A program made the position numbers and the translations under genes. Positions 13,796 through 64,000 of a DNA stretch of 64,000 nucleotides are shown here, in pieces. The DNA lies in NCBI GenBank assembly GCA_037042915.1, contig CM073204.1, positions 620,001 to 684,000 on the forward strand, given 5' to 3'. The DNA comes from Auricularia sp. M13. Its lineage: Eukaryota > Basidiomycota > Agaricomycetes > Auriculariales > Auriculariaceae. The notes beneath the pieces are model-generated. The model did not search any database and had not been told where the DNA came from. It worked only from the letters and a program-made list of their open reading frames with translations. The stretch's first letter is position 1, and every line of letters begins with the position of its first letter.

Positions 13796-14835
13796 GCACC
13801 ACGGGGAATTGGCTATGAATGTATGGTCCAGATTTAGACGGATTCTAGACATAGTTGAGCACAAATTAACGGGCCAGTCGAGACACTGCTTGCACTAGTG
13901 CGGGCTTGATCATTGGATGGGCGTCGTGGGCTGTCGTGTTCCATCCTATTAATTGCCCAACCGGCTGAGTGTAATGAGACCGCAATGATTCTGACGAGAC
14001 CAGAGACCGCGCTCCACACTACGTGACACTGCCCAGTCCTCCCGCGTCTTTCTCACCATTACAGTAACTGATATGTCTCAGAGAAATGTGATCGTGCTAG
14101 GCGAGACGTATCGTCCTGCCTTCACGCCTGGCCTAGTCTGTATCAAATCACACCTGCCTAATAGAGAGCCCCCAATTCGGCTGGGGCCGTGATGCACGTG
14201 ATCCAGACGCGTCGTGTCCAAGTCGCCAAAATAAAATCTCTCCTATATTTCAAATGGGAATTCGAGGGGAATTGCAACTCATCTCAGGTTGTGCTGTCCG
14301 CCTGCAGGATTGGGACTTCTCTACGAAGCACACGACCGTCCCAAAGAACTAAGCGCTGGTCACGGATCAGGGCGGATCAGCGATTGCCTCCGAATTGGGG
14401 GCTCCCTAGGGGGGCGCGTATTGATGCAGACTTTACTTCGAACGATTATCTTCGAACGTCAAAGTCTGCGAAGGAGACTACGCCTGGCCGCGTATGGCAA
14501 CGACGAACTCAATCCCCTCCGCAGTTGAAAAGAGGGACAGGTCAGTATAACTGCGTAACATCTCGCAGACTCGCTGACGGCTTCCATAAGCCTGTTACCG
14601 CGGCAAAAGCGACATTTTCGAATTGACCTTTAATCGCGCTGGAGAATTAGTTGCGGAGCCTGCGGCATCCGAAACATACTGTCCTCGTCTGCTGTTTCCG
14701 GAGGAAAGAGCTAGAGCTATAGCTACTGAGGACCAATCCATCGACGAACAGGAACTGCCTTGCTTTACGTGCGGTCTGATCCACGACCCAGTCGCCACCT
14801 GCGCACCACCACGCGCCTTAAGGTTCGAGAGGAAC
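13796..14835. other. Unassigned region left of the tandem duplication
   Basis: Two consecutive plus-strand frames (14,189-14,626 and 14,623-about 14,830) contain protein-like text, including CFTCGLIHDPVATC with three cysteines and a histidine, but they overlap in different frames and have no recognised domain. The second is cut by the edge of the 1.65-kb duplication. I do not promote either to a gene. Confidence 0.35.
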
Positions 14836-16484
14836 GTTGACGTCAGCTGCCATTCGGCGCCTGCGGACGCGAGGGCGCATCGAGTCCACGGACGATGCCG
14901 GTGCTCCCAAGGCGGCGCCAGCGTGTCATGGTTATGCTCTTACTCCTCGTTATCATCGTCAGTGAGCGCGGGGTAGGCGCAGACGTCTCGCGCTCCGTCC
15001 TCGCCAGTAGCAGGTGCGCCCCACCCGCGTGTTTCGCCTTGAGCTTCGTCCCTGAGGCAAACACAAACACCGGCTCTGCTGCCTCCGCTGGCAGTGCGCA
15101 GTCTCGACGTCGACACATTCGTATTAACGTTCCCACTGAGCAAGCCTTCTTCAGCGGCGGCGCCGGCACACAAGCAGCAATTGGGCGGGTGGCGAGGGCG
15201 GGAGCGTCGCTGCGAATTACTGAGCATGCGTCCTCGTTGCTGGCGTCATCGTTGGCGGCGCGTTGAGGTCGTAAGGCCGGTCGGAAGGTGGCTTCTCATG
15301 CCGCCTCGGCGCTCGTAAGTTCGAGCCAAAGAAGGCGATATCACCCACATCGACGCAGCACGACGGATTCTTGAATCTGCGCGCGAATCATCAGTGCGAA
15401 GATTCATCATGGGCATAGACGTGAACGCGTACCAGATACAGTTCGCAGGCGCTTCTGCTTGACGAGCAAGTTACCCTCCAACTCGCGTAGGACGGCAGCA
15501 AGAACGAGTTTGACGGTATCACGATTCATGTGTAGCATTTCCGCGCAACGTTCGGGAACTTCTGAATGACTGTGAGTAGACCGAGGTTGGGGTAGCTGCT
15601 CGATCTCACAATGGATTGCAAGATAATGCGGATTACGCCGTGCTGCGCGGGTCCTCGTGTGCGCTGGGCGCAAGCGCAGGTCAGCGTCTCCACACAGCAT
15701 TGGCAACGTGGGCCGGACGCATGACGCCGTGCGGTATACACATGCACCCCGCCGCTGCCGACAGGTCGTCATCCAGGCACAGTGAAAGTTCGTTCAGGCC
15801 GGTCAGAGCAGGAGTGACCTGTGTTCGAGCTCGGCGAGCGGAAAACTGCTTGAATTGGGCAACAGGCGTGCGGCGGCGGCAGAGCGACTGCTGCACGGAC
15901 GCGACGACCATGCTTTGCTCTAGCGGAGCGGTGCAAGAGCGCCCCGTCGGGCGACGACAAACGCGCTACGCGTCGATTCGGTGCGGTCGTTACTACGGAC
16001 GATATGATATGGGCTGCAGGTAGCGGACCTACGCTAAAATCAGCGACGAACGCATGCGCTACTTCTCGTGCACATACTGGGCCACAACTGCGCGCGACGA
16101 CCGCGGACCTCGGAAAGTGCGCCGCTGACCGCAAAGCCCGCGGGCAAAACGATGAACGCGCGGCTGTAGCGAGAGTGAGCGGAGGAAGCGAACAGCAGGT
16201 GGCGAGCATACTGCAAGTCGAAACGACTGAACGCTCTGAGCCCACAAATGCGGCCGCTTGGGCCTCGCGCGTGCTCGACCTGATGTGTTGGGCGGCATCC
16301 CTAGCACGCACCGCTCACGCGCGCGCCACGGACCGTCCTAGCATATGGGTGGGCGGTGTCCGGCACGCATGGCCATAAGTAGGCGCTGCAAACATCGGTA
16401 AGATATATTGGATCCTAGTAAGATTCGAGCAATCTCGCACATAAACTTAGCGGGTCCTGAGAGCGATGACAGTATATTGCCAAT
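14836..16484. repeat. 1.65-kb tandem direct duplication, unit 1
   Basis: The unit starts GTTGACGTCAGCTGCC and ends ATTGCCAAT. It is followed immediately by a second copy. Compared with unit 2 it is 6 bases shorter; the differences I could find are single- or two-base indels in short G, C or CG runs plus a substitution or two. The minus-strand frame that is open in unit 2 around 17,190 is shifted here by a one-base deletion near 15,542. Confidence 0.95.
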
Positions 16485-18139
16485 GTTGACGTCAGCTGCC
16501 ATTCGGCGCCTGCGGACGCGAGGGCGCATCGAGTCCACGGACGATGCCGGTGCTCCCAAGGCGGCGCCAGCGTGTCATGGTTATGCTCTTACTCCTCGTT
16601 ATCATCGTCAGTGAGCGCGGGGGTAGGCGCAGACGTCTCGCGCTCCGTCCTCGCCAGTAGCAGGTGCGCCCCACCCGCGTGTTTCGCCTTGAGCTTCGTC
16701 CCTGAGGCAAACACAAACACCGGCTCTGCTGCCTCCGCTGGCAGTGCGCAGTCTCGACGTCGACACATTCGTATTAACGTTCCCACTGAGCAAGCCTTCT
16801 TCAGCGGCGGCGCCGGCACACAAGCAGCAATTGGGCGGGTGGCGAGGGCGGGAGCGTCGCTGCGAATTACTGAGCATGCGTCCTCGTTGCTGGCGTCATC
16901 GTTGGCGGCGCGTTGAGGTCGTAAGGCCGGTCGGAAGGTGGCTTCTCATGCCGCCTCGGCGCTCGTAAGTTCGAGCCAAAGAAGGCGATATCACCCACAT
17001 CGACGCAGCACGACGGATTCTTGAATCTGCGCGCGAATCATCAGTGCGAAGATTCATCATGGGCATAGACGTGAACGCGTACCAGATACAGTTCGCAGGC
17101 GCTTCTGCTTGACGAGCAAGTTACCCTCCAACTCGCGTAGGACGGCAGCAAGAACGAGTTTGACGGTATCACGATTCATGTGTAGCATTTCCCGCGCAAC
17201 GTTCGGGAACTTCTGAATGACTGTGAGTAGACCGAGGTTGGGGTAGCTGCTCGATCTCACAATGGATTGCAAGATAATGCGGATTACGCCGTGCTGCGCG
17301 GGTCCTCGTGTGCGCTGGGCGCAAGCGCAGGTCAGCGTCTCCACACAGCATTGGCAACGTGGGCCGGACGCATGACGCCGTGCGGTATACACATGCACCC
17401 GCCGCCGCTGCCGACAGGTCGTCATCCAGGCACAGTGAAAGTTCGTTCAGGCCGGTCAGAGCAGGAGTGACCTGTGTTCGAGCTCGGCGAGCGGAAAACT
17501 GCTTGAATTGGGCAACAGGCGCGTGCGGCGGCGGCAGAGCGACTGCTGCACGGACGCGACGACCATGCTTTGCTCTAGCGGAGCGGTGCAAGCGCGCCCC
17601 GTCGGGCGACGACAAACGCGCTACGCGTCGATTCGGTGCGGTCGTTACTACGGACGATATGATATGGGCTGCAGGTAGCGGACCTACGCTAAAATCAGCG
17701 ACGAACGCATGCGCTACTTCTCGTGCACATACTGGGCCACAACTGCGCGCGACGACCGCGGACCTCGGAAAGTGCGCCGCTGACCGCAAAGCCCGCGGGC
17801 AAAACGATGAACGCGCGGCTGTAGCGAGAGTGAGCGGAGGAAGCGAACAGCAGGTGGCGAGCATACTGCAAGTCGAAACGACTGAACGCTCTGAGCCCAC
17901 AAATGCGGCCGCTTGGGCCTCGCGCGTGCTCGACCTGATGTGTTGGGCGGCATCCCTAGCACGCACCGCTCACGCGCGCGCCACGGACCGTCCTAGCATA
18001 TGGGTGGGCGGTGTCCGGCACGCATGGCCATAAGTAGGCGCTGCAAACATCGGTAAGATATATTGGATCCTAGTAAGATTCGAGCAATCTCGCACATAAA
18101 CTTAGCGGGTCCTGAGAGCGATGACAGTATATTGCCAAT
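16485..18139. repeat. 1.65-kb tandem direct duplication, unit 2
   Basis: Second copy of the preceding unit, starting GTTGACGTCAGC and ending ATTGCCAAT at 18,139, where the flank resumes with GTCGGGATGCC. The shared GT at unit start and right flank gives two bases of microhomology at the junction. Near-identity implies a recent event. Confidence 0.95.
17057..17425 (-). CDS. Unassigned frame inside duplication unit 2
   Basis: A 122-codon minus-strand frame whose C-terminal two thirds reads like real protein (SYPNLGLLTVIQKFPNV, RDTVKLVLAAVLRELEGN). It is probably the last exon of a gene whose upstream exons are not clear. In unit 1 the same frame is broken by a one-base indel, so at most one copy can be intact. 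A longer overlapping minus-strand frame (17,169-17,966) has low-complexity composition and I do not favour it. No family is recognised. Confidence 0.35.
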   Translation of the reverse strand: MTTCRQRRRVHVYTARRHASGPRCQCCVETLTCACAQRTRGPAQHGVIRIILQSIVRSSSYPNLGLLTVIQKFPNVAREMLHMNRDTVKLVLAAVLRELEGNLLVKQKRLRTVSGTRSRLCP

Positions 18140-38639: not shown

Positions 38640-39810
38640 ACAAGAGAAAACGAATCCTAGTACTTGTCAGCGCTCCACTTGAAGCCGACGTCGTAATGCA
38701 AAGCTCTACAGCCACGCAGAGGGGGCGAGAAGGCAAACTTCTGCGCGAAAGGCCCGTTGCCCGCGAACCTCTCACGGAACTCGCGCACCTTGTGCTTCTT
38801 GCTCTCGTTCTTAGCATCGCTGTGCTGCGCCTTGCGCCTCGCCGCGCACTGCGGGTAAGTTGAAACCTAAGCAGGGAGATCATCCATCAGCCGTCGAGGC
38901 CCGATTTTGGGAGGATTGGGAGAACGCACGACGAGGCCGCGCCTCCTTGCGCTCGCGCCGCACGGCCATATCCTGGTGCAGCAGACGCGAGTAGACCTCC
39001 GGGAAAGCCGTCGTGCCGACCTTCTTCTATAAAAGATCCTGCACCTCCGAGGCAAGCGTCTTCAGTAGATCTGCGAAAGTATCTTAGCAGGGCTGCATAA
39101 CGAAACAAAACGGACGAACGCATACATCGACGCTTGCGCAAGGGTGTCCTCGTCGAGAACGCGCTACAAGGGCGCAGGGAAGTGCAGCAGGAAACGGACC
39201 GTCTGAGCAGGCTCCACGTGGCTCGCGACACAGTGACAGCATGCAACCTCTTGTGCATGGCCGACGATGCGTCGTGGTCATCGTCGTCGTCCTCGCTGAG
39301 CCTCAACAGCTCGAGCTCCCGCGCGGGTTCGAGCTCCTCCTCCTCGCGCTAGTCGTTGACCCACAGGTGCATGTTGAGCCAGGACTACGGTGTGTGGATG
39401 GGTCGGCCAGATCAAGGCCGTCCAACAGCGAGCGCGTCGACGTCAGCACGTCCATCCCGCCGACCTCCGCCGCGAAATTGTGGAAATCGCGGTCACAGTC
39501 GCGCAGCTCGCGCAGGTAGCCCTCCCGATCGCGTGTCGCATCGCGTCGCCGCTGGATTACGACGGCTGCGACGTCCGCGAGAGTCGCATTCACACCGCTC
39601 ACAGCAGCCCGCGCCGGACGACGCGCACTTGATGTCCAGGCGGAGCAGAGTGCCCAGGAGGCCGCTGTCCATCGTTAGCCACTCCAAGCGGTCCTCGTTG
39701 GGCTCCAGCGCCGCCGCTCGTCGACCGCGACGCCGCTGGTGGCCAAGAATGGACATTGTCGGGCTCTGGGTTGCGCTCGAGCCGGGTCGTCAGCCACATA
39801 TGTAAGCCTC
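38640..39810 (-). pseudogene. Multi-exon gene remnant beside the 5.5-kb element
   Basis: Minus-strand exon text RLEWLTMDSGLLGTLLRLD joins in frame through a 41-nt GTGAGC...CGCAG intron to VVIQRRRDATRDREGYLREL and MDVLTSTRSLLDGLDLADP. The next likely intron (GTAGTCC to CGACTAG) changes phase, and later pieces (EEEELEPARELELLRLSED, FPEVYSRLLHQDMAVRRERK, FAQKFAFSPPLRGCRALHYD) are not in one frame. I read a decayed gene of unknown family. Its sense strand and base composition match the minus-strand coding-like DNA on the other side of the element (45.3-45.7 kb), so the element may have split it. Confidence 0.4.
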
Positions 39811-40032
39811 CCTTCCTCTGGTATACTGGTCCCAAGTCCTCCAGTACTGAGAGTTGGGACCCAAATCCCAGCTTTCATTGGCACATAGGTCTCAACTTCT
39901 ACTGGAGGTCCCAACCTCAGGAGGTCCCAAGTTCCAGAGTCCCAGATTCAGTAGTCCCAACTTTCAGGGGGCTCACATGCGACTTAGGAGTGGATTCATC
40001 TCAATGCGCAAGTCAAAATGACTTCTGACCTG

Positions 40033-40103
40033 CAGGAGATTTGAACCCTCAACCAGTCGCCAGTGCCAAACCCATCCATGCTTTAACCACTAGACCAGGG
40101 AGG
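40033..40103 (-). ncRNA. tRNA-like pol III promoter (SINE-type head), left
   Basis: On the minus strand an A-box-like TGGTCTAGTGG and a B-box-like GGTTCAAATCT lie about 50 bases apart. No full cloverleaf can be drawn, so it is tRNA-derived, not a tRNA gene. It faces the left end of the 5.5-kb element. Confidence 0.55.
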
Positions 40104-40627
40104 AGATGATGGTGAGCTCCATTGCTGGCAATATATGGTAAGACTCAAGCACCTCTGTTCATAAGAATGCAAATAACATTGAAACCAAGAGGCCAAAAAT
40201 TATAAAGTATATATGATTATTGTAGCTCTCAATGGGCTCTATAATATTATGTCTTAGTGGAGATAATATATCTAAGCCAGAGAGGAAGAATGGATGTCCA
40301 AACATGATTTGGTATGCAACTGTCACAGCAAAGCACCTCACTCGTGCTCAGACAGGTTCAGGAGGATTCTGGAAGGAAAATATGAGCAGAACAACTGATT
40401 ATATCAAATTAGGGTACACTGAATACAATTCCAAGCAGATACATGTCACAGTACATGGCGATCATGCCCATATGCTCCCACTGGATCTGTTTTGCCACTG
40501 TGAACGCTTCTTCTTGTCATGGCAGAGTGCTCGTCACTCACCAAGACTGACACCCAAGAGAGGAGTTTGGTGCACTGTTTCCCCTTGGACTGAGACTTGG
40601 CCAGGGTTGCACGCCTCAGGCCATTTG

Positions 40628-41656
40628 TCAGTGTGCTGCATACAGGACTGACCAGGAGGCATAGTCGACCAGGAAGGGTACTCCGGAGGGAAAGGTCAAA
40701 CACATAATAGACCAGATCCAACCTAGGGTACATCCAAGGGCAATCGCCGGTATATATAGTCCGGTCAGAGGCCGACCGGATCTGAGCGCTCCGGATGACA
40801 GAGGAGCCAACCAACACCAAAGGGAGGTCCGGAAGCAATGGGGAAAGACATCGGGGAAGTCACAGAGGGTAATCGGGAGCCAGTGAAAGCAATGGGGGGT
40901 AAAGGGGGTCAAGGGAGGGTCAAGAAAGAGCGCAAGCATTGCACCAAAAGCGCAGAACGACTCCGGACAAAGGTGATAAAGGATGTCCGTGCCTATGGAG
41001 GGTATCGGGTGGGTATCCGAGACAGACCGAGGTGTCTTTGCATGTATGCACACACCGACACCGGGGGAGAAAGGGGGCCGACGCAATGGCGAGCGCAGCA
41101 GTGAGCACAACGCGTCAGCAAGCGCAGTACAAGTGCACCACCCAACAATCGAGACTCCCAATGTGTCCAGACGTCCTCTGGACCATGGACAGTGCCGAGC
41201 GCGGATTGAGGAGAGTGTGGCAGCTGAGGTCCGAGGTACCGGAGCAGTCAAGCATCCATGGGACAGAGGGTGAAGGATGGACGTCAGCATGATCGTTGCA
41301 GCTTTGCCTGTACTCCCCGCGTGCACCGGCAATGCAGGGCAATGCCCGAGGTGTGATGTGCGGCATATCTGAAGGTGTGGGCCGTAATGTGACACCAAGG
41401 AGATGGACCGACAAGCAGCTACATGCTGGTTGAAAACCAACGCAGCGGTGGTCAACGACAATGGCAATGGTGCGTCACATCCAAGGACCGAGGTTGACAA
41501 TCCGGTGACGCCGAGAGAAGGTATCCAAGGTGCCAGCGGTCTGGAGAGGCTTGCAGGACGGGTATATCGGTCAGACAGAGCAGGCGAAGCAGCAAAAGAG
41601 ATCCAACAGAAGCGGCGTATGGGCGCAATTGCCGCGCACCGTAACAGTCTGGTCAA
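40628..41656 (-). other. Long open frame inside the element, unsupported
   Basis: A 342-codon minus-strand frame, opened by a TTG codon, rich in Cys, Ser, Leu and Pro. Shorter ATG-started frames on the plus strand overlap it (for example 41,403-41,738). No domain is recognised, and I do not treat it as a gene. Confidence 0.4.
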
Positions 41657-41836
41657 TTGTACCCCTTGTCTGTTCTTCCTTGTCCCTCTCTCCTCTCTCA
41701 GGCATCAGTCTCAGCAAGTGATGAGCACTCTGCCGTGACACTATCACCCCCTAGTTGGATAGAGGACAGCAAGTAGATCATATTGAGAGCTGACCAGCCC
41801 AGGATGCACCCCTGGCACATGGTCTGAGGCAGGGAG

Positions 41837-41889
41837 ATACAGTGGGGAAACATGAGAATGCTGGTCCATAAATTGCATATACCACGTAA
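41837..41889 (-). repeat. 53-bp inverted partner of 44,598-44,650
   Basis: The reverse complement runs ATTACGTGGTATATGCAATT through TTCCCCACTGTA and matches 44,598-44,650 with one or so mismatch, marking repeated modules within the 5.5-kb element. Confidence 0.8.
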
Positions 41890-42136
41890 TTCAGCAGCGG
41901 CCGGCCTTGCCGGCAAACACCTTGCTTGAATGCAAGTATGTAGTCTGGCCAGTCCAAACCGAAGGGACCGGGAGTTCCCGATCCCCATTGTAGACAACCC
42001 TCCGGAACAGTGAATCGTGGATTGCGCCACCAGTTCCCAGCCAAACGCTCCCATTTCTACGTCAAACTGCTTCCTTTATTTTTCGGATTCAGAATATGAA
42101 GAAATTCTAGAGTCTGTAAACCCAACCTCTAAGCCT

Positions 42137-42862
42137 ATCCTCCTTATACTGTACAAAAATTATTTTATCCAAAATCGAGCCCTTATCCAAATTTTTGAGG
42201 TGTTTTCCAAGATCTTACCCTTCCATCCAAAATTTTGTGAGAGATCCAAGCTGCAGGACCTGTCATTCAGATCGATGTCACCGGATCCAAATCTGGTGCC
42301 GGCAATCCAAATCTGGGCACACCCCAGATCCAAGAAATACTTCCGGAGATCCAACTGCAATCCAACCCAATTCCAAGCATCTCTGAGCTCTGTTATGAGA
42401 AAAATCGAAGTCATTATCTATTTACTCAGGGACTGCCAGGGTCGGCCGATTTTCAGGCCCGAAGGTCGGCAGTGTCCGACTGACCCTCGGAGCAGCTCTA
42501 TGGCTGAGGATCCGGACCCTCCGGACACTGCCGACCTTGGGGCCTGAAAATCGGCCGACCCTGGCAGTCCCTGAGTAAATAGATAATGACTTCGATTTTT
42601 CTCATAACAGAGCTCAGAGATGCTTGGAATTGGGCTGGATTGCAGTTGGATCTCCGGCAGTATTTCTTGGATCTGGGGTGTGCCCAGTTTGGATTGCCGG
42701 CACCAGATTTGGATCCGGTGAGATCGATCTGAATGACAGGTCCTGCAGCTTGGATCTCTCACAAAATTTTGGATGGAAGGGTAAGATCTTGGAAAACACC
42801 TCAAAAAATTGGATAAGGGCTCGATTTTGGATAAAATAATTTTTGTACAGTATAAGGAGGAT
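42137..42862. repeat. Large palindrome, arms ~335 bp
   Basis: The left arm (42,137-42,478) and right arm (42,533-42,862) are inverse copies with few differences, from ATCCTCCTTATACTGTAC inward to CAGTGTCC, with a 54-base spacer. Arms contain frequent GGATCCAAAT-like words. Such arms could fold into one long hairpin RNA or cruciform. No coding capacity. Confidence 0.92.
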
Positions 42863-43774
42863 ATAAGCCTTTGCCCGTCCGGATGAGAGCTGAGAATGGC
42901 ATTCTGAGGCTCCAAACTGATAGGAAAGACACATGTACATGTCATATCATATTTGGAGTGCTTATACTGACGAAATTGCGCCTTTCGAGAGTTTTGGTGC
43001 GTGGGTGAGAGTTGGCCGGCAGACTTGATTCGGCCATAGAATTCCGAGGACGCGTCGGGGTGAGGTTTTGGGACCTAGAATAAATGATACATGCAGATAC
43101 AAGCAATTCTAGGTATATATGAGGACGGAAACTCAAGTGTGGGACTTATTATAAGATGCGGGAGACCCGTCTGCAGGAAGTTGCCGAAACCGTTTACATC
43201 CGATTGAATGGCGTTTGGAGTGGCCATGTAGTCAAACTTGATAATCGACCATAATTTGATGCTTCTTGCTTGTGTGACAAGAGAGAGCCTGAGAGAGCAT
43301 AGCCTGACCTCTCGTTGCGCCAGATGCACTTCCACAGTGAGCATTGAATGCGTGAGCTCGCATGGTTCATTCTTTCGGCAATTGGCCATCTGGCTCATTC
43401 AATCCAGAATGAACACAACGGACGAGCGGTATGTAGTGTCTACAAGCTTTGGATCCAGAGACTCAGCAAGCGCTGAGACTCGTTGAACTTGGACAATCGA
43501 TACAAATTAGATCTTGAATTTGCCGGTGTTGTAGGCCAAGCTCGTTAAAACACTTGTTTATGGCGACTCCCATGTTACGTTTGAGGGTACTGTATCTCCC
43601 TTGGGTGGAGCGTTGGTGTTGTTCATGCAGCATAAATGCGATTATCTTCGTAGATAGGACGGCAATAAGTATTGGAGAGTATCGTTTGACGGGATAACAG
43701 GGAGGGCGTATTCATACTTTAAATGCAGCTTTCATCCGTAGGAACCTCATTGGGGTGAGTGTGCTAGACAAGGC

Positions 43775-43850
43775 CGTAGCGGGAGTCGAACCCGGGGCCG
43801 CCAGGGGGCATGGTCAGACGCGTTAGCCAAGTAAGCCGGATCAGTGTGGA
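43775..43850 (-). ncRNA. tRNA-derived sequence (pseudogene)
   Basis: The minus strand has a canonical B box and T-loop (CCGGGTTCGACTCCCG) and an A-box-like TTGGCTAACGCG upstream. Acceptor ends do not pair and the anticodon stem is lost, so a working tRNA is unlikely. Confidence 0.5.
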
Positions 43851-43897
43851 AACGTTGGCGCCATTTTGACCCGGGAGAGACCTTTCAAGCAAGGTGA

Positions 43898-44599
43898 TCT
43901 ACTGCAGGGAGAACTATGGTGTTAATATGGGACTTGTAGCTCTCAAAGAGCTCTATCAGGTGGTATATAGGTACTGGCAAAGGGGTACAATCCGGGGGTG
44001 AGAGAGAGGATCCGATGAAGAGGTGGAAAATCACATCGCCAGAATCAGGTCCTCCGGATCATTTGAGGTTTCCCTCTCAATCTATACGTAATTCTGAGGT
44101 GAGTTTACTATTTCAGCCAAAGTGGTTGGATGTCCGATTCTGGAGCCAGTGGACCCACAATTTCTGCTTGCTCAACCTCTGAACGAGGCAATGGCCTACC
44201 TAACTGCATACCCCTGGACTGAGACATGGTCTAGAGTACATTATATGTAGTTTTATGCTCTGAGAAGGATTGTCTGACCCTTGGTTGGCCCTCAAGGTCA
44301 TTCAATTCCCGGATATAGAAAGCATGGAATCCAGGTTAATTGAGAAATTGCTCCAGAATGGGACATCCAACCACTTTGGCTGAAATAGTAAGCTCACCTC
44401 AGAATTACGTATAGATTGAGAGGGAAACCTCAAATGATCCGGAGGACCTGATTCTGGCGATGTGATTTTCCACCTCTTCATCCGATCCTCTCTCTCACCC
44501 CCGTATTGCACCTCTTTGCCAGTACCTATATACCACCTGATAGAGCTCTTTGAGAGCTACAAGTCCCATATATACACCATAGTTCTTCCTGCAGTAGAT
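43898..44599. repeat. Foldback with ~245-bp arms and ~205-bp loop
   Basis: The arms (43,898-44,144 and 44,350-44,599) are inverse copies, starting ATCTACTGCAGG and including GTAGCTCTCAAAGAGCTC and TTTCAGCCAAAGTGG. Small differences show some age. Nested in the 5.5-kb element. Confidence 0.9.
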
Positions 44600-45021
44600 T
44601 ACGTGGTATATGCAATTTATGGACCAGCATTCTCAAGTTTCCCCACTGTAGTGCCGAGATTCGCTACCCACCAAAGGTGAAGACCAAGGGGAAAGACGAA
44701 GCCCAAGGGCAAAAGGACATTGCTGAGGCACAGAGAATATGAGCCAGCGCACTAAAGGTGTGTAGCAGAGCCTGCAATAACTAGGATGACTGCAACAGAG
44801 TATTAATTTTTACACTCTCCATCGCATCCTTCCTGTCACCTTGAGCTGCACCTGTGCCTCTAGAAAAATATACTACATTATAGAGCCTAAAGAGGGCTTC
44901 CAGAATTATATATACACCATTATGTAATTCACATTTGGTGATACTTTATTTACAATTTATTCAACCAATCCTCGCTCACTGTAATTCTATGTATTGAACA
45001 ATAACAGCCTTGTCATCATTG

Positions 45022-45090
45022 GTATCCTGGCTTAGTGGTTAAGGTCCTGGTTGTAGAATAGTGGGTTGAGGGTTCAAGTCCTTGTCTATC
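45022..45090 (+). ncRNA. tRNA-like pol III promoter (SINE-type head), right
   Basis: A-box TGGCTTAGTGG (45,028-45,038) and B-box GGTTCAAGTCC (45,071-45,081) with 32 bases between. Mirror partner of the left copy; the sequence around both (GTTGAGGGTTCAA) is alike. It is oriented toward the right end of the element. Confidence 0.6.
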
Positions 45091-45303
45091 CATCAGTATT
45101 TCTGTTTTGGTTTCTCATGTGCCAAACTTGAATATCATATGGTATTGGTACACTAGTAGTAAACTTGGGACCTGCTAACAGACTTGGGACTGACCAGAAT
45201 CTGGGACCTCTAGCTATGGCACCCTAGCACATGTATGAATCTTGGGACCATGGAAACCTGGGACCACAAGTCCCAGGTTTCTATACTGAGCAACTTGGGA
45301 CCA

Positions 45304-45700
45304 TTATACCAGATAATGAACACTTAACATAGCCCTCGTCAGGATGCGCTGTGGTGGTACCGTTGGGCATTCGTTCGTCGTCCTCGCCGTCTCGGAGACG
45401 GCGTTGGTGAGGTCGGTGAGGTTGCTGATGGTGAATGATAGTGGCAGCGCTGCGGTCGGACGGCGACACGAAGAACTTGGCAAGCAAGCAATGTCTGAAA
45501 CTGCGTCAGCACCTGCAAAAACTGACGATGGGAGAGGGCGACTCACCGCGTGCACCAACGAGTAGGCGGTCCGGCGCGAGGAGCGCAGCGCAGCGCCGAA
45601 CTGCAGACGCTGACGGCGCGCCATGCCATGCAGATCGCCAAGATGTTTCCCGCGACGGCTTTGGACACAGGGTGAATCGGCGGTGAGCGGGATGGGAGTT
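45304..45700 (-). pseudogene. Exon pieces cut by the right end of the element
   Basis: Minus-strand text NILAICMARRQRLQFGAALR and SSRRTAYSLVHA precedes a clear intron (GTGAGTCGCC to TTTTTGCAG) followed by VLTQFQTLLACQVLRVAV. The frame then decays toward the element end. Family unknown. It may belong with the remnant on the other side of the element (38.6-39.8 kb). Confidence 0.35.
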
Positions 45701-49699: not shown

Positions 49700-52600
49700 T
49701 CACGTATAGATAGCGCACATTAATGCGCGTCGAATGCGAGCTTGCTTCAATATAGTTAACAGCCGGAAAATGCGAATAGAAGTTCGAGCGCTAAGAGAAG
49801 TGTACTCACCGATAGCCATGATATGCGTGCGCACAGTGGTGTTGTTTGGATGGCAATTAGAAGAGCTCGTCGAGGTGGACGCGAGGCGCGTTGATGGCGG
49901 TCTCCGGGCGAACTTGGACGGCGTTCGCGGCGAGCCGCTTACCATGCTTCGTGCGGCCGCTCTCAACCGATGCAGGGCAATAGAGAATAACAGCGTGGCC
50001 GGGGGCGCAAGGAGTAACAGAGACGGCACTAGCGCGCAGCTGCTCGGCATGGTTCGTGCGTCGAGACTCGTGAGCGCGGATCGGTTGCGATTGCCGTGCG
50101 CGATGCACGCTGCAACGGAGAACCGGCGCACATTGAGCGCAAAGTCTGCTGCTGCTACGAGCTGGGATGATGAGCGCGAGCTGGACTTGCGCGGCGGGGT
50201 GCGAGGTCAAGTCCACAGGGGACAGGCCGGGCAACACAGGCGGGTCGTGAGCGCAGCTGAGAACCGGTCAACAGGCATGCGAGGCAGGTATAAATGGGAT
50301 GAGCTCACCGTGAACTCGTTGTCGGCTGCAACGATGAGCAGGGATTGGGGTAGATCGGCGCGAGCGCCAAGCTGTAATTTATCGGCTGGCGCGGGGCCGC
50401 GAGTGCCCCAAACGTGAGCTGCGGGCGCAGACGAGGATCGGGAGTGAAGCAACGAGACGAGCACATCAGGCGTCGACGCAAGCGCCGTTCCAGTGAGGCA
50501 GACGGCCCCGATCCGGAGTCTAAGATGAGCTGGTCGCACGGGCGTCAGCACGTGTACTGCGTGTATTGACAATGGTGGCTTCATCGGGGCGATGGTCGAG
50601 GATGTTGCGCTCGCGCTGCACGCCCGCGAGTGGTCGCGTCGGTAAGGTGCAGCTCGCCTGCTAGACATATCCACAGGAGAGGCAGCCTTTCTGTCGCGCC
50701 ATCGTGACTTCCGCAGAATCAACAAGTCCACTTCGTCAGCGTCCTACAGTGCGCTGGATTGTGATGCCGCTAACGTCGGGGCATTTCCTCCAAGGTCCAA
50801 GGTCTCTCGCGGCGCACGACGAGCGGATGAAGGCAGGAGTCGCGCAGCTGGTACGCGTTTGTGCCAGACACCGCGGGCTCGCGCGTGTCAGTTTCCCGAG
50901 GCAGCCTTCGGTAGCTTTACATGCCGGCGGTTGCGATAATCTCGTAGTCACGACGCGTCGCGCGCACCGACACGCTGGGATGGCCGGTACCGCGCTCAAT
51001 CTACATGCGCTATTATCCGCGCAAGTCAGCCTCTCTGACGCTTGCATTACTTTCAGATTACACACCTTATCACTAGGGGCGCCGGTAGATGTTGTCGGGC
51101 ACTTCAGTCAGGGAGATGATGCCTGCGACGGCACGGGCTTTGACGGCGCGGTCGTCAATGTACCGTCAGAGATGAACGTCTCCCGTGGAGCAGCAGCCCC
51201 AAGGAGCAAGGCCTCAGAGCAGTGAATCCGACCCGACTCAGCGCCAAACGCTGGGAATTGCTTCGTGGAGGGCCGAGAAGCGCAACATAAGACCCGGGCC
51301 CCGTATCGCTGGCAACGTCGGCACCTTCGGCGACATCTGGTATGGCCTTCGCGAACATGCCGGACTCGAGGCTCAACTCGTGCTACGACCACATCCCGTC
51401 GCGTGCGTTTCGCTGGGACGCACGGTGTAGGAGCTCGCTTTCCGGGCCCGTAAGGCGAAGATTGTCTTGCGACGCGGGGAGGAAATCACGCCAGGACGAA
51501 TGAGGCGGTAGTCGTCGGTGGGCACGGTGCTGGGCACAAGATTGATCGAGGAGGAGAGGAACGACTTGAGATGCTTGGCGTAGAAGACTGTGCTGCCTCT
51601 GGCAACTGCAACCGTTAGGTTGGTAAACGCGAGCTGTATTGCGGTCCGAAACAGAGCGTTCACTCACCAGCATCGCAGAGAGCGGATACTGGCCCCGCTG
51701 CGGCCAAGAGGCTTGCATGCAGCGCTCGGGGTCCGTGAGTAGCGCTAGATAAAACGTCAGTTGTTGTGTGGTAGGCCAGGCGCAACCGGAGAGTGTGAGC
51801 GTTGGACTTACCAAAAGACGACGGGGCCGTTGGCGACGGTTTCGACATGGCGCAGGAAAACGGTGGGCTGAAAATGATATATGAGGAAGCGCCAGGCGCA
51901 TCGCGAAGCCGAGCTCACCGGTGTATGCGATGGTCTCGAGCCGGTCATATGTGCGCGGCGCTGCTGACGCCGACGATTGCGGATTAGGCAGGTTGGACTG
52001 CAGCGTCTAGTTGCCACCTGCAAACGGCTATTCAGAAATCGCGGGGAGTGTCGCGTCCCCGAATCGAGTGCCTACGGGCGTATGCGATGCTGTCGGGCAT
52101 TGGTGGCTGCCGCCGACGTCGACGGAGGAGCGCTTCACGTCGGATTGGGTGTCGCCTGGGAGCATGCAGCGCTCTGCGAGCGCAAGAAACGGCTGAAAAT
52201 CAAATATCAGCACAGTCAATACGGCGCGCATGGCGAGCCCGAGCTTACGACCGTCGGCGATGCGGGACATGGCCAGCTGCTTGTGCACGCGCCCCTTCGC
52301 CTTCCGTTACGCGTCGTACAGCTTGGCGGGGTCTTGCGCAATATCCCAGGCCTCGCCCGCCTGGTGCTGCGAGGCGGTTGAGAGCGTTTCGCCGCTGTTC
52401 TGAGTCGGATGCGTACCTCAAGAAATCCGGCTTCTGTGTATTGGCAGCCAGGGCTGGTCGCAGGCAGCTGATAGAAAGATCAGCTGCTGAACGGCTCCCG
52501 GTATTTTGTGCTCACCAGGCGGCTGGCCAGCGCAGCCGTCTCCGCCGATGTCCTGCGCGCGCGACTCGCATTGAGCACCCTCGTCGCCAGCGTCGTCGGT

Positions 52601-52780
52601 ACGCGGCCCACGTGCCATGGCGACGTCGGCAGCCGTTGCACATCGTCCAACGAGTCCGCCGCGCGCCAGCAGCGCCGGTCTCGCCAATTGCGTACTGAAC
52701 TCGCCCTGCGCGACGCGGTCGGGATCAAGCGCCCGTCCCGTTCCGTTCACGCAACTTCGCCGACTCGCGCTAGCTCCGCA
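49700..52780 (-). pseudogene. Remains of an intron-rich gene, product unknown
   Basis: Reading the minus strand, coding-like exons are divided by strong splice signals: LAMRA then PFLALAERCMLPGDTQSD; GTGAGCTCGGC...ATCATTTTCAG before PTVFLRHVETVANGPVVFW; GTAAGTCC...TTTTATCTAG before LLTDPERCMQASWPQRGQYP; then AFTNLTVAVARGSTVFYAKHL with PSTVPTDDYRLIRPGVISS, SGMFAKAIPDVAEGADVAS, and DLPQSLLIVAADNEFT before a GTGAGC donor. Phase is not kept across all of them, so at least part is broken. The 5' piece (52,445-52,770) recurs at 62.6 kb with its GTGAGC-AAAATACCGGG intron start. I could not name the family. Confidence 0.4.
52445..52770 (-). repeat. Dispersed gene segment, copy 1 (inverted relative to 62.6 kb)
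   Basis: The minus strand matches the plus strand at 62,573-62,870 at roughly 70-75% by eye over about 300 bases, including CGCGCAGGGCGAGTT, CTGGCGCGCGGCGG, CACGTGGGCCGC or equivalent, and CAAAATACCGGGAGC followed by TCAGCTGCCTGCG. Confidence 0.7.
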
Positions 52781-53245
52781 GGATCACGCCCTCTCCCATT
52801 ACGTAATATTTTCTCTTCGCCCCGCGATTTTTATGACGTCAGGTGACCGTTTAGAACGATAGTTCTGAAATTGAACGAATTTACATTTGTTTCTGCTCGG
52901 TGCATATCTCTTCGCATCCGTCTGCATCAACCTCAGCATTGAACATGCCATGAAGAGACTGGCCTGAAACCTTTGCAGATTACATTGAGAATTTCATTTT
53001 CTCCTATACCATGTTCACGACTCGACGACTTTTTCAACGCAACCTCGCGACGAGGCGTTTCTCGTGGCTGTCAGCGATCCGCGCATCGGCCGGCTAGTTG
53101 AGCAACACTACTTAATATTTTCCAGGCCTGGGACCACTATGGTGTGAATGGGATCTGGTATTGTGCGAGTATGATGTGATCCCGCGATGATGTTCGGCGC
53201 CTGCGGATCCGTGGAGTCGGCGCATGGCATAGAAGCCTATACAAG

Positions 53246-53554: not shown

Positions 53555-53727
53555 CGCCTACCGACAGTGGGAAGATCGACGGGCGCAACAGCCACGCAAG
53601 GCAAGGCCCTGAGTTGGACTCTACGAGCGGTACACCGTCTTGGGTGCTGCACGCAACCTCGTTGACGATGTCCAACAGACGTAGGCTTCAACGCGATTCC
53701 ATCTCGTATACGAGCGCGCAACTGCAA

Positions 53728-54689
53728 CAGTACGTACTTGTCCTGTGATTCCTCCCTCCTCCCACGACTTCCTCCTGGTCGACGGCGCGCTCTCGAGCTC
53801 CCGCGCGCTACGCACTGGTTGGTGCCGCGCGCTGGCGAGGACTCGGCGGAAGTCGGACTCGTACTGATTGGTACCTCTGACGGCGTTGTCGACTCGGCCG
53901 TCGATCTGCATCGTCCAGCGCCGCCGCCCGCGTGCGCCAACACCTTACTGACAATATCATAGGTCTCGAAACGCACTACCGGCGCGCACTGTCTGCAACG
54001 GTACGTACTTGTCCTGTGATTCCTCCCTCCTCCCACGACTTCCTCCTGGTCGACGGCGCGCTCTCGAGCTCCCGCGCGCTACGCACTGGTTGGTGCCGCG
54101 CGCTGGCGAGGACTCGGCGGAAGTCGGACTCGTACTGATTGGTACCTCTGACGGCGTTGTCGACTCGGCCGTCGATCTGCATCGTCCAGCGCCGCCGCCC
54201 GCGTGCGCCAACACCTTACTGACAATATCATAGGTCTCGAAACGCACTACCGGCGCGCACTGTCTGCAACGGTACGTACTTGTCCTGTGATTCCTCCCTC
54301 CTCCCACGACTTCCTCCTGGTCGACGGCGCGCTCTCGAGCTCCCGCGCGCTACGCACTGGTTGGTGCCGCGCGCTGGCGAGGACTCGGCGGAAGTCGGAC
54401 TCGTACTGATTGGTACCTCTGACGGCGTTGTCGACTCGGCCGTCGATCTGCATCGTCCAGCGCCGCCGCCCGCGTGCGCCAACACCTTACTGACAATATC
54501 ATAGGTCTCGAAACGCACTACCGGCGCGCACTGTCTGCAACGGTACGTACTTGTCCTGTGATTCCTCCCTCCTCCCACGACTTCCTCCTGGTCGACGGCG
54601 CGCTCTCGAGCTCCCGCGCGCTACGCACTGGTTGGTGCCGCGCGCTGGCGAGGACTCGGCGGAAGTCGGACTCGTACTGATTGGTACCT
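53728..54689. repeat. 271-bp tandem array, about 3.5 units
   Basis: Units repeat exactly every 271 bases (landmark CCTGTGATTCCTCCCTCC at 53,742, then +271, +542, +813). Internal units look identical; the left edge diverges. On the minus strand each unit holds a GTACGTACC...TTGTCAG stretch of 61 bases with intron signals, leaving 210 bases, exactly 70 codons. The last unit ends about 190 bases before the start codon of the large gene that follows. Confidence 0.95.
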
Positions 54690-54880
54690 TTGTGGTCTCT
54701 GTGGAGAGCGGCGGTCGTGCGTTCCACAGAGCAGGGTTACTCGAAACGCTCTACAAGTCACTGACAAAAAGCTAGGACTCTGAGGAACTCGCGAAGGAAA
54801 AAAATCTCGCCGACCCCAACGGCCACACCCTCCGGATTCGCAGTGTACGGCAGCAACCGCACTTCTTTGAATGCAGCTGA

Positions 54881-62271: not shown

Positions 62272-62572
62272 GGCACGGTTCGCAGCACAGATATAGAATC
62301 AAAGGAGGGGAGGATACGGCCAGTTACGATAGTGTTGGGATCTTTCATAGCCCTTACGTTGTTGACGATAGTCTCCATCTTTCTGGCCTTTGGTAAGGGA
62401 TTGATATGGTAGATCACGTGCATAGTTCAAGAGAGAAATTCCGGAGAATCGTAATAGGTGCGATCTACAGTATTGAACGGGAGCACGTGCAAGGAGTAAG
62501 TCAAGCGGATGAGTTCAGAGGAGCTAGCTGAAAAGAGAGGCGCAAAGGCAGCAGCGAGTCATCCGGCGGAGC

Positions 62573-62870
62573 CAGCGCGACTAGGCGAAGTTGCGCGGGA
62601 ACAGCGCTTGTTCCGAGGCCTCGCGCAGGGCGAGTTGAGTACGCAGTCCTCCAGACCGGCGTAACTGGCGCGCGGCGGGCTTGTGAGCAACCTCCAGCTG
62701 CTGGCGCCGTCATGGTACGTGGGCCGCTACCGCCGCTGCTGGCGACGGGGATGCCAAATGCGAATCTCAGAGGACTGCGCCGCCTAGCCGCACGGTGAGC
62801 TCAAAATACCGGGAGCTGTCACCCAGCAGCTGATCGTTGTGTCAGCTGCCTGCGGCCACTCCTTGCTGCA
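62573..62870 (+). repeat. Dispersed gene segment, copy 2
   Basis: Inverted partner of 52,445-52,770. It includes the same donor context (GTGAGCTCAAAATACCGGG here). Stops in every frame mark it as decayed. Confidence 0.7.
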
Positions 62871-64000
62871 ACGTCACAGAGTCTCTCGTAGACGGGCCCG
62901 TCCACGCAGAGCAAAGCTACAGCGAAGCGTTCGCGAGCTAGCGAACGTGGTAGTTGAACGCGTGATTGGGACTGCTTTACACCATTGGGCTTGCATACGC
63001 CAGTGTACTCTGACGTCGGCATCATGCCCCCGGGTTGGTCACCATCTACGAAGAAATCCACGACGCCGAAGTCTGGCAGGAATACGCCTCAGAGGCTTTA
63101 TAGCAGCGTCGGCGCGTATTCATTACGGCTTGAAGCTTGGTCTCTACAGCGATCGGCGCGAAAACCGCGTCTGGCGGGAGAAGGGTTGAGTACGCTGTAC
63201 AGCACGCAATGCTGACAAAGGCCTCGGGCGCGATGAATCCCTGACAGAACCCGCACCGGCGGCGCCCTCGAACCGCCAGCCTCGACCGGCACGACCCGAT
63301 GTTCACGCGCAGACGAGCACCCACCCGAGCAAGCCGCCCAGGACTTCGGAGATCACGTCTTTGTGAACCTACTTCCGCCCGGCGAACAAACTGGCGCTCG
63401 ACCAGGTTTTCGGGCTGGCGCACGAAATGCACGAAAGATGTGGGACAGGTGCGCTCACTGGACTATTTCATATAATTGTGGAGGAGGAGTCCGACGTAGA
63501 CGACGCTGAACGAGATCCACGTCGCCCGGAAGATGGGTGGGTATTCGACACGGTCGCGGCGGTAAACAGAAACGTACACCGGTCAACCAAACGTGAGTGG
63601 CTGGTCGAGATTCTTGGTGTTGAATTTGACGGCTCAAGTCTCTCGCTGGGCTATGACCCCTCAGCCGGGTAGGGGTGCGTACTCAGTGCCCGCAACTGGC
63701 TCGTGCTCGAGCCCAACGTATCCGCAGTCGTCTCTCCATGACATCGAGATGTCCCGCTCAAAAGCGACGCGAGTAGAAAGAGCGTCGCGCAGACGAGCAG
63801 CCTCGGGCTGAGGAGGGACATCGGGTTGAGGAGCAACGTCTCGCAAACGAGCAGCGTCTGGTCGTTCCTCCACCCAGTCATCGCGCGGTCGCCGTTGCTT
63901 CTGCCGTCTTAGTCTCCTTAAAGCAGGCCACTACTTACAGCGCGTCCTTGAACCGGCGAGCGGGCGGACGCGCTGTGTACTGCCGTCTTGCCCAACGCCA
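62871..64000 (+). pseudogene. Decayed continuation and unassigned frames at the right edge
   Basis: Plus-strand pieces VEYAVQHAMLTKASGAMNP (63,190-63,245, then a stop) and, at 63,427-63,672, an open 81-codon frame with FHIIVEEESDVDDAERDP and STKREWLVEILGVEFDGSSL look like real protein. A ~54-base degenerate repeat with CGCAGACGAGCAGC and CGCAAACGAGCAGC lies at 63,785-63,865. The first pieces may continue the gene whose other copy is at 50-52.8 kb. No family is named. Confidence 0.35.

Follow-up and report, generated by a model that had tools for sequence, protein, structure and literature searches.

A two-ended transposon family with outward-facing A and B boxes in Auricularia sp. M13 and its probable affinity to the KDZ superfamily

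In the basidiomycete Auricularia sp. M13 (GenBank assembly GCA_037042915.1), positions 620,001 to 684,000 of contig CM073204.1, a stretch of 64,000 nucleotides hereafter called the window, contain an element of about 5.5 kb that joins features of two kinds of mobile DNA: terminal inverted repeats (TIRs) with arrays of a short word beneath them, and tRNA-like A and B boxes that point outward near both ends. The question raised by this locus is whether the element is a DNA transposon in its own right or, as the preliminary description of the window suggested, either a DNA element that captured short interspersed elements (SINEs) or two SINE-tailed modules joined together. Comparison of copies across the 52.1-Mb genome (14 contigs, numbered C below) speaks for the first of these. 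The window element and its relatives, here family 1, have fixed ends, mostly 8-bp target-site duplications and no convincing gene in their core. In their termini and in a subterminal word they resemble giant elements with CxC4 and KDZ-type matches, which belong to a second group of large elements with similar ends (family 2). Family 1 is thus probably a non-autonomous cut-and-paste DNA transposon of the Kyakuja-Dileera-Zisupton (KDZ) superfamily, closest to the branches that make 8-bp duplications.

Ends, copies and interior of family 1

At least 13 places in the genome match the left 443 bp of the element as first reported, and at least 20 pieces match its right 453 bp; once these matches had been paired, 12 full copies were found, every one with both ends. 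Since the two ends are shared in this way, a chance nest of repeats, the explanation that the preliminary description had reserved for ends occurring separately or in no other copy, was rejected. The remaining left-end match (C7:3609258) is an internally deleted copy of 69 bp, in which 62 bp from the left end run directly into the final 7 bp of the right end, flanked by exact 8-bp duplications (AAGCAAAC). The remaining right-end matches are a lone right end at C1:8078811 and a right end that an insertion has broken into two pieces, which belongs to the copy C7big, and six further ones are self-inverse pieces of 32-34 bp. The terminal words common to the 12 full copies place the window copy at 39795..45335 (5541 bp, no strand assigned), with CACATATGTAAGCC as its first and ACATAGCCC as its last bases, and the TIRs of the preliminary description were found again within boundaries shifted outward by 23 bp at either end. 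The same alignment, which that description had recommended, settled the target duplication in most copies: it is 8 bp long and exact in nine of the 12, while in the window copy the left side (TCGTCAGC, 39787..39794) and the right side (TCGTCAGG, 45336..45343) agree in 7 of 8 bases. An 8-bp duplication is among the marks of KDZ membership, and so is the TIR, which is imperfect here and lies inside a longer inverted module.

This module, of about 450 bp, occupies 39795..40250 on the left and 44870..45335 on the right. The left 470 bp and the reverse complement of the right 490 bp are 67-69% identical in the three copies aligned of the 12, with alignment scores of 49.5-52.5 against a best score of -29 among 200 mononucleotide shuffles each, and each end can accordingly be read as one module made of an imperfect TIR, a GTCCCA array and then T4, B box and A box, the boxes facing outward. 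The left TIR (39795..39837, plus strand) reads CACATATGTAAG...TCTGGTATACTGGTCCCAAGT and the right one (45293..45335, minus strand) reads inward GGGCTATGTTAAG...TCTGGTATAATGGTCCCAAGT. The arrays, both given on the plus strand, follow at 39828..39959 (GGTCCCAA/GTCCCA) and 45165..45302 (TTGGGACC/TGGGAC). The clustering of these words reported earlier is borne out by 13 occurrences of GTCCCA/TGGGAC in the two terminal 230-bp stretches, compared with a mean of 0.59 and a maximum of 4 in 2000 first-order random versions and with a density of 0.51 per kb outside the element; one family-1 copy examined over 450 bp has five to six GTCCCA words at each end. Base composition likewise agrees with the earlier statement that the element is poorer in GC than both flanks, 2-kb windows fully within it having a GC content of 0.465-0.523 and the nearest outside windows 0.539-0.573. 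Its right half has the lowest GC of the whole window; its left half (0.513-0.523) does not share this rank, because windows elsewhere reach 0.510.

Copies of family 1 are closely related, the left 640-bp stretches of the 12 showing a mean pairwise identity of 96.8% (range 95.0-100%). Two copies, C3s and C3big, differ by only two substitutions, one 1-bp indel and one 8-bp indel over about 3.7 kb (the nested insert and the cut edge of C3big excluded) and are flanked by different target duplications, which suggests recent movement. The unit itself is about 3.5 kb long, as seen in the three shortest full copies (C1, 3516 bp; C12b, 3518 bp; C8b, 3542 bp). The size of 5.5 kb given earlier therefore holds for the window copy and not for the family, since about 2.0 kb of that copy are a secondary insertion (41891..43893, 2003 bp, unstranded) with an inner foldback at 42136-42863 and a short imperfect flanking repeat, GTAAT/GTGAT. 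No match of 60 bp or more to this insert is present in the 11 other full copies, and the copy on C2 also lacks the stretch to the left of the insertion site. A tRNA-like stretch seen by eye within the insert (43776-43835, minus strand) is not found by ARAGORN, and Rfam mir-3199 matches at 42429-42571, below the gathering score and inside the inner foldback, were put down to that foldback as artefacts. A central foldback also exists in the core (41838..44650, unstranded), with arms of about 300 bp, the left one split by the insert (41838-41890 and 43894-44146) and the right one at 44350-44650, around a loop of about 203 bp.

Coding potential was judged from four open reading frames (ORFs) of the window copy, compared across the 11 other full copies. 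In every one of the 11, those of 357, 129 and 116 aa are broken, out of frame, matched only in part or missing. The fourth (40226-40648, plus strand, 141 aa) lacks stops over nearly its whole length in six of the 11; four of these six carry a 2-bp frame-shifting insertion, and in the two unshifted copies the changes mostly alter the amino acid (silent to changing 1:4 and 1:3), so that it shows no sign of protein-level constraint. None of the four has a Pfam match at E 0.1. On these tests the core of about 3.5 kb holds no convincing gene, although it may hold a small one, and a coding element was rejected. The autonomous copy with a transposase that the preliminary description had proposed to look for was not provided by two long copies either: C3big (13.9 kb) has an aspartyl-protease ORF in its nested insertion and C7big (14.6 kb) a nested-insertion ORF with a Transposase_21 match below the cut-off, and both were set aside as autonomous members because their length comes from nested insertions. 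C3big (C3:116764-131243) apparently sits within a KDZ gene; KDZ matches lie at either edge of it, and the right-hand match overlaps its end by about 40 bp.

Large elements with similar termini

Candidate partners were reached by a pattern search of the genome with the family-1 TIR, which returned seven family-2 left ends (GGGCTATCTCAAG...TCTGGTATATTGGTCCCAAC, also given as GGGCTATCTCAAG...TGGTATATTGGTCCCAAC). The right end of this family (reading inward CAGGTATATAAGC...GTATAATGGTCCCAAG) occurs six times. Four left-right pairs face each other at distances of 28.7 kb (C9), 30.9 kb (C1), 35.5 kb (C2) and 42.3 kb (C10), all four with an exact 8-bp duplication (CTGAGAAT, CGGCGGCC, CACTCAAT and GTCTCGGG), and three left and two right ends are unpaired; the family-1 copy on C9 lies 2.4 kb downstream of one such unpaired left end. 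In BLAST comparisons the right tip of family 1 matches the left tip of family 2 over 41-42 bp (80-83%, E about 1e-4), and positions 23-82 of the family-1 left end match the family-2 left end over 61 bp (79-80%, E down to 6e-8). The outermost bases of the family-1 left end (CACATATGTAAGC) and the family-2 right end (CAGGTATATAAGC) are also alike, 10 of 13 by hand count in an alignment only. The array word recurs in family 2, with 8-9 GTCCCA per 179-180 bp in two right ends and nine per 450 bp in one left end.

CxC4 and KDZ-type matches lie inside all four paired giants. The first 8.9 kb of the C9 element encode a CxC4 ORF that is over the Pfam cut-off (E=5e-40), and when this ORF was used as a query the next two matches fell within the C2 and C10 pairs (80 and 81%); the match within the C1 pair is broken (61% over about 200 aa, with stops) and has a lower rank, and another piece, at 77%, is on C3 beyond any pair. 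The same 8.9 kb also hold a KDZ ORF; when the genome was searched with it, the three matches ranking next in E-value fell within the C2, C1 and C10 pairs (73, 77 and 85% identity), the fourth, on C3, again lay beyond any pair (71%), and the rest scored lower. The genome has 19 Tet_JBP matches, and each giant pair encloses one of them, the one on C10 alone being over the Pfam cut-off. In the C9 giant a protein kinase-like ORF (L079:1155-1796, minus strand), which may be cargo or nested, separates the transposase ORFs from the left end.

Published KDZ elements offer both likenesses and differences. According to passages of PMC12810828, KDZ1 of Cryptococcus neoformans is about 11 kb long with 241-bp TIRs and 8-bp duplications, and KDZ1-KDZ3 together resemble the Auricularia elements in their duplications (8 bp in KDZ1, 4-8 bp in KDZ2 and KDZ3), in having TIRs (139-241 bp) and in combining a cysteine cluster with a KDZ transposase. 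They differ in being coding elements of about 9-11 kb with CxC1, whereas family 1 is about 3.5 kb long, has no convincing gene and carries A and B boxes, and its putative partners measure 29-42 kb and have CxC4. In Pleurotus, a passage of PMC7641404 has intact KDZ elements preceded by CxC2 and not by CxC5 or CxC6. The passages of Kojima 2025 (PMC12730594) give 8-bp duplications for Zisupton and one Dileera family and describe TET/JBP genes carried by KDZ elements; the fungal Dileera, Kyakuja and Zisupton elements of this kind are like the giants in uniting a KDZ transposase and a TET/JBP-like gene in one element, and those with 8-bp duplications share this length too. Neither partners with A and B boxes nor elements of 29-42 kb are mentioned in these passages. 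The same source describes two Laccaria Kyakuja families with 7-bp duplications, CA..TG ends and no TIR, unlike family 1, which has 8-bp duplications and TIRs and does not conform to Kyakuja as these two families show it.

Several observations weigh against the assignment of family 1 to the KDZ superfamily and against the giants as its partners. Two of the 12 full copies, C8b and C9, have no target duplication. The two families have little sequence in common, some 40-60 bp at the tips and, besides, the array word; BLAST gave no separate match for the resemblance between the family-1 left tip and the family-2 right tip, and it matched the family-2 right ends to family 1 over 21 bp only, at the family-1 right end. 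The KDZ domain of the C9 giant scores 23.7 bits, below the Pfam cut-off of 26.6, there is one stop in the C2 KDZ match and there are several in the C1 CxC4 match, and what was read of the giant interiors is the first 8.9 kb of the C9 element and the first 1.5 kb or so of others, with right ends to 221 bp. The genome also contains at least 149 KDZ matches (150 of 163 candidates scored), so that another KDZ protein could be the mobiliser. Subterminal repeats are common in hAT elements. For hAT, 8-bp duplications are usual as well (passage of PMC12730594), and together with the shortness of the common stretch this could mean that family 1 belongs to hAT or another superfamily with such duplications, its transposase lying elsewhere and its likeness to the ends of the KDZ giants being convergent. 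This explanation is unlikely, given that the words at the tips and in the array, as well as the 8-bp duplications, are shared with four elements that have CxC4 and KDZ-type matches. Within the KDZ reading, the large family-2 elements would supply a CxC4/KDZ-type transposase acting in trans, which may bind the TTGGGACC array, pair ends of the CACATATG type with ends of the GGGCTAT type, excise the element and reinsert it with an 8-bp stagger.

Boxes in the terminal modules

The outward A and B boxes of the preliminary description were recovered by pattern search as the only two such pairs in the window, one per element end, compared with a mean of 0.1 and a maximum of 1 in 60 Markov windows. 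The left pair spans 40038..40097 on the minus strand and is followed, 19 nt beyond the B box, by TTTT at 40015..40018 (minus); the right pair spans 45028..45080 on the plus strand, with TTTT 24 nt beyond the B box at 45105..45108 (plus). Both spacings are constant, T4 standing at 19 nt in all ten left modules that match the full box pattern (12 examined; C1 and C7big without match) and at 24 nt in all 12 right modules. A box, B box and a following T4 are also the features of tRNA-derived SINEs, and their tRNA-like wording at both ends is what favours a DNA transposon that captured two SINE heads. The exact inner pattern, however, has 23 matches in the genome, all of them in the 12 family-1 copies (24 ends, the left end of C1 missing it), and a reversed-pattern control has none; this pattern would miss diverged SINEs. 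The pairs, moreover, occupy equivalent places in the two homologous, mutually inverted modules, and they differ from such SINEs in being inverted to each other within an element that has TIRs and 8-bp duplications; searches with the ends show no separately dispersed copies. The capture of SINEs is thus unsupported and appears very improbable. The other proposal of the preliminary description, two SINE-tailed modules joined, comes closer, because the ends are indeed two inverted copies of one module, although no SINE body, tail or separate dispersal was found.

Whether the boxes do anything at the ends is a separate matter. In an alignment of the 24 modules the box blocks are among the best-conserved 17-mers, alongside the TIR. 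When the modules are compared with one another, the strict boxes agree at 19 of 22 columns, the overall figure being 57% (p=0.003; p=0.08 for the A box and p=0.02 for the B box taken singly). Extended blocks, selected with the data in view, agree at 31 of 35 (p=5e-5), a conservation equal to that of the TIR, and the right-module boxes are invariant across the 12 copies (0 of 22 variable columns against 146 of 443, p=2e-4), all of these tests being inflated by the kinship of the copies. The boxes may, on the other hand, be functionless relics whose agreement between the ends reflects chance and shared module descent, and this is about an even chance. In keeping with relics, variation in the left-module boxes is not significantly reduced (2 of 22 variable columns against 69 of 423, p=0.29), and the C1 left end lacks the pattern. 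No A/B pair is present at the nine family-2 loci checked, in the stretches read, so that the boxes are, as far as read, not common to the proposed partner. A structured RNA left no sign: ARAGORN finds no tRNA in the window, Rfam shows none at E values up to 5 in ten copies, the window copy among them, and the RNAs predicted from 12 box units of six copies are not unusually stable against shuffles (z -1.4 to 1.2). We infer that the boxes resemble kept protein sites rather than kept RNA. As sites for TFIIIC or RNA polymerase III (Pol III), they might have been kept because they help the ends, either by holding them in open chromatin or by giving rise to a short RNA whose synthesis ends at T4, short of the array. 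That a Pol III type-2 promoter is built into both terminal modules and kept by selection, with TFIIIC or short outward transcription marking or opening the ends for the transposase of TET/JBP-carrying KDZ elements of 29-42 kb, is a tentative proposal, rather doubtful at present. Among the papers listed by narrow searches of the open-access literature there was no report of a DNA transposon with Pol III boxes at its ends, nor of giant basidiomycete transposons.

Other repeats and significance of the family

Further repeats lie elsewhere in the window. Inverted repeats at 52433-52787 and 62558-62880 (358 aligned columns, 72% identical) stand about 10 kb apart and enclose an F-box ORF of 469 aa and two others, of 765 and 423 aa, for which Pfam gives no match at E 0.1; this pair with its long ORFs is possibly another large element. 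A tandem array at 53722-54834 consists of about four 271-bp units, three of them identical over a 300-nt reference and the fourth at 69%, and a direct duplication with a spacing of about 1650 bp occupies 14833-17820, with 99-100% identity among the pieces listed.

For the biology of these elements, family 1 represents a non-autonomous family whose ends, asymmetric and similar to those of the giants, tie it to a candidate for the autonomous partner, with TTGGGACC as a short candidate for the word bound by the transposase. The putative partners, 29-42 kb long and each with a Tet_JBP match, would be large beside the KDZ elements of 9-11 kb in the passages of PMC12810828. If the boxes work, family 1 would be an example of a DNA transposon drawing on the Pol III machinery at its own termini.

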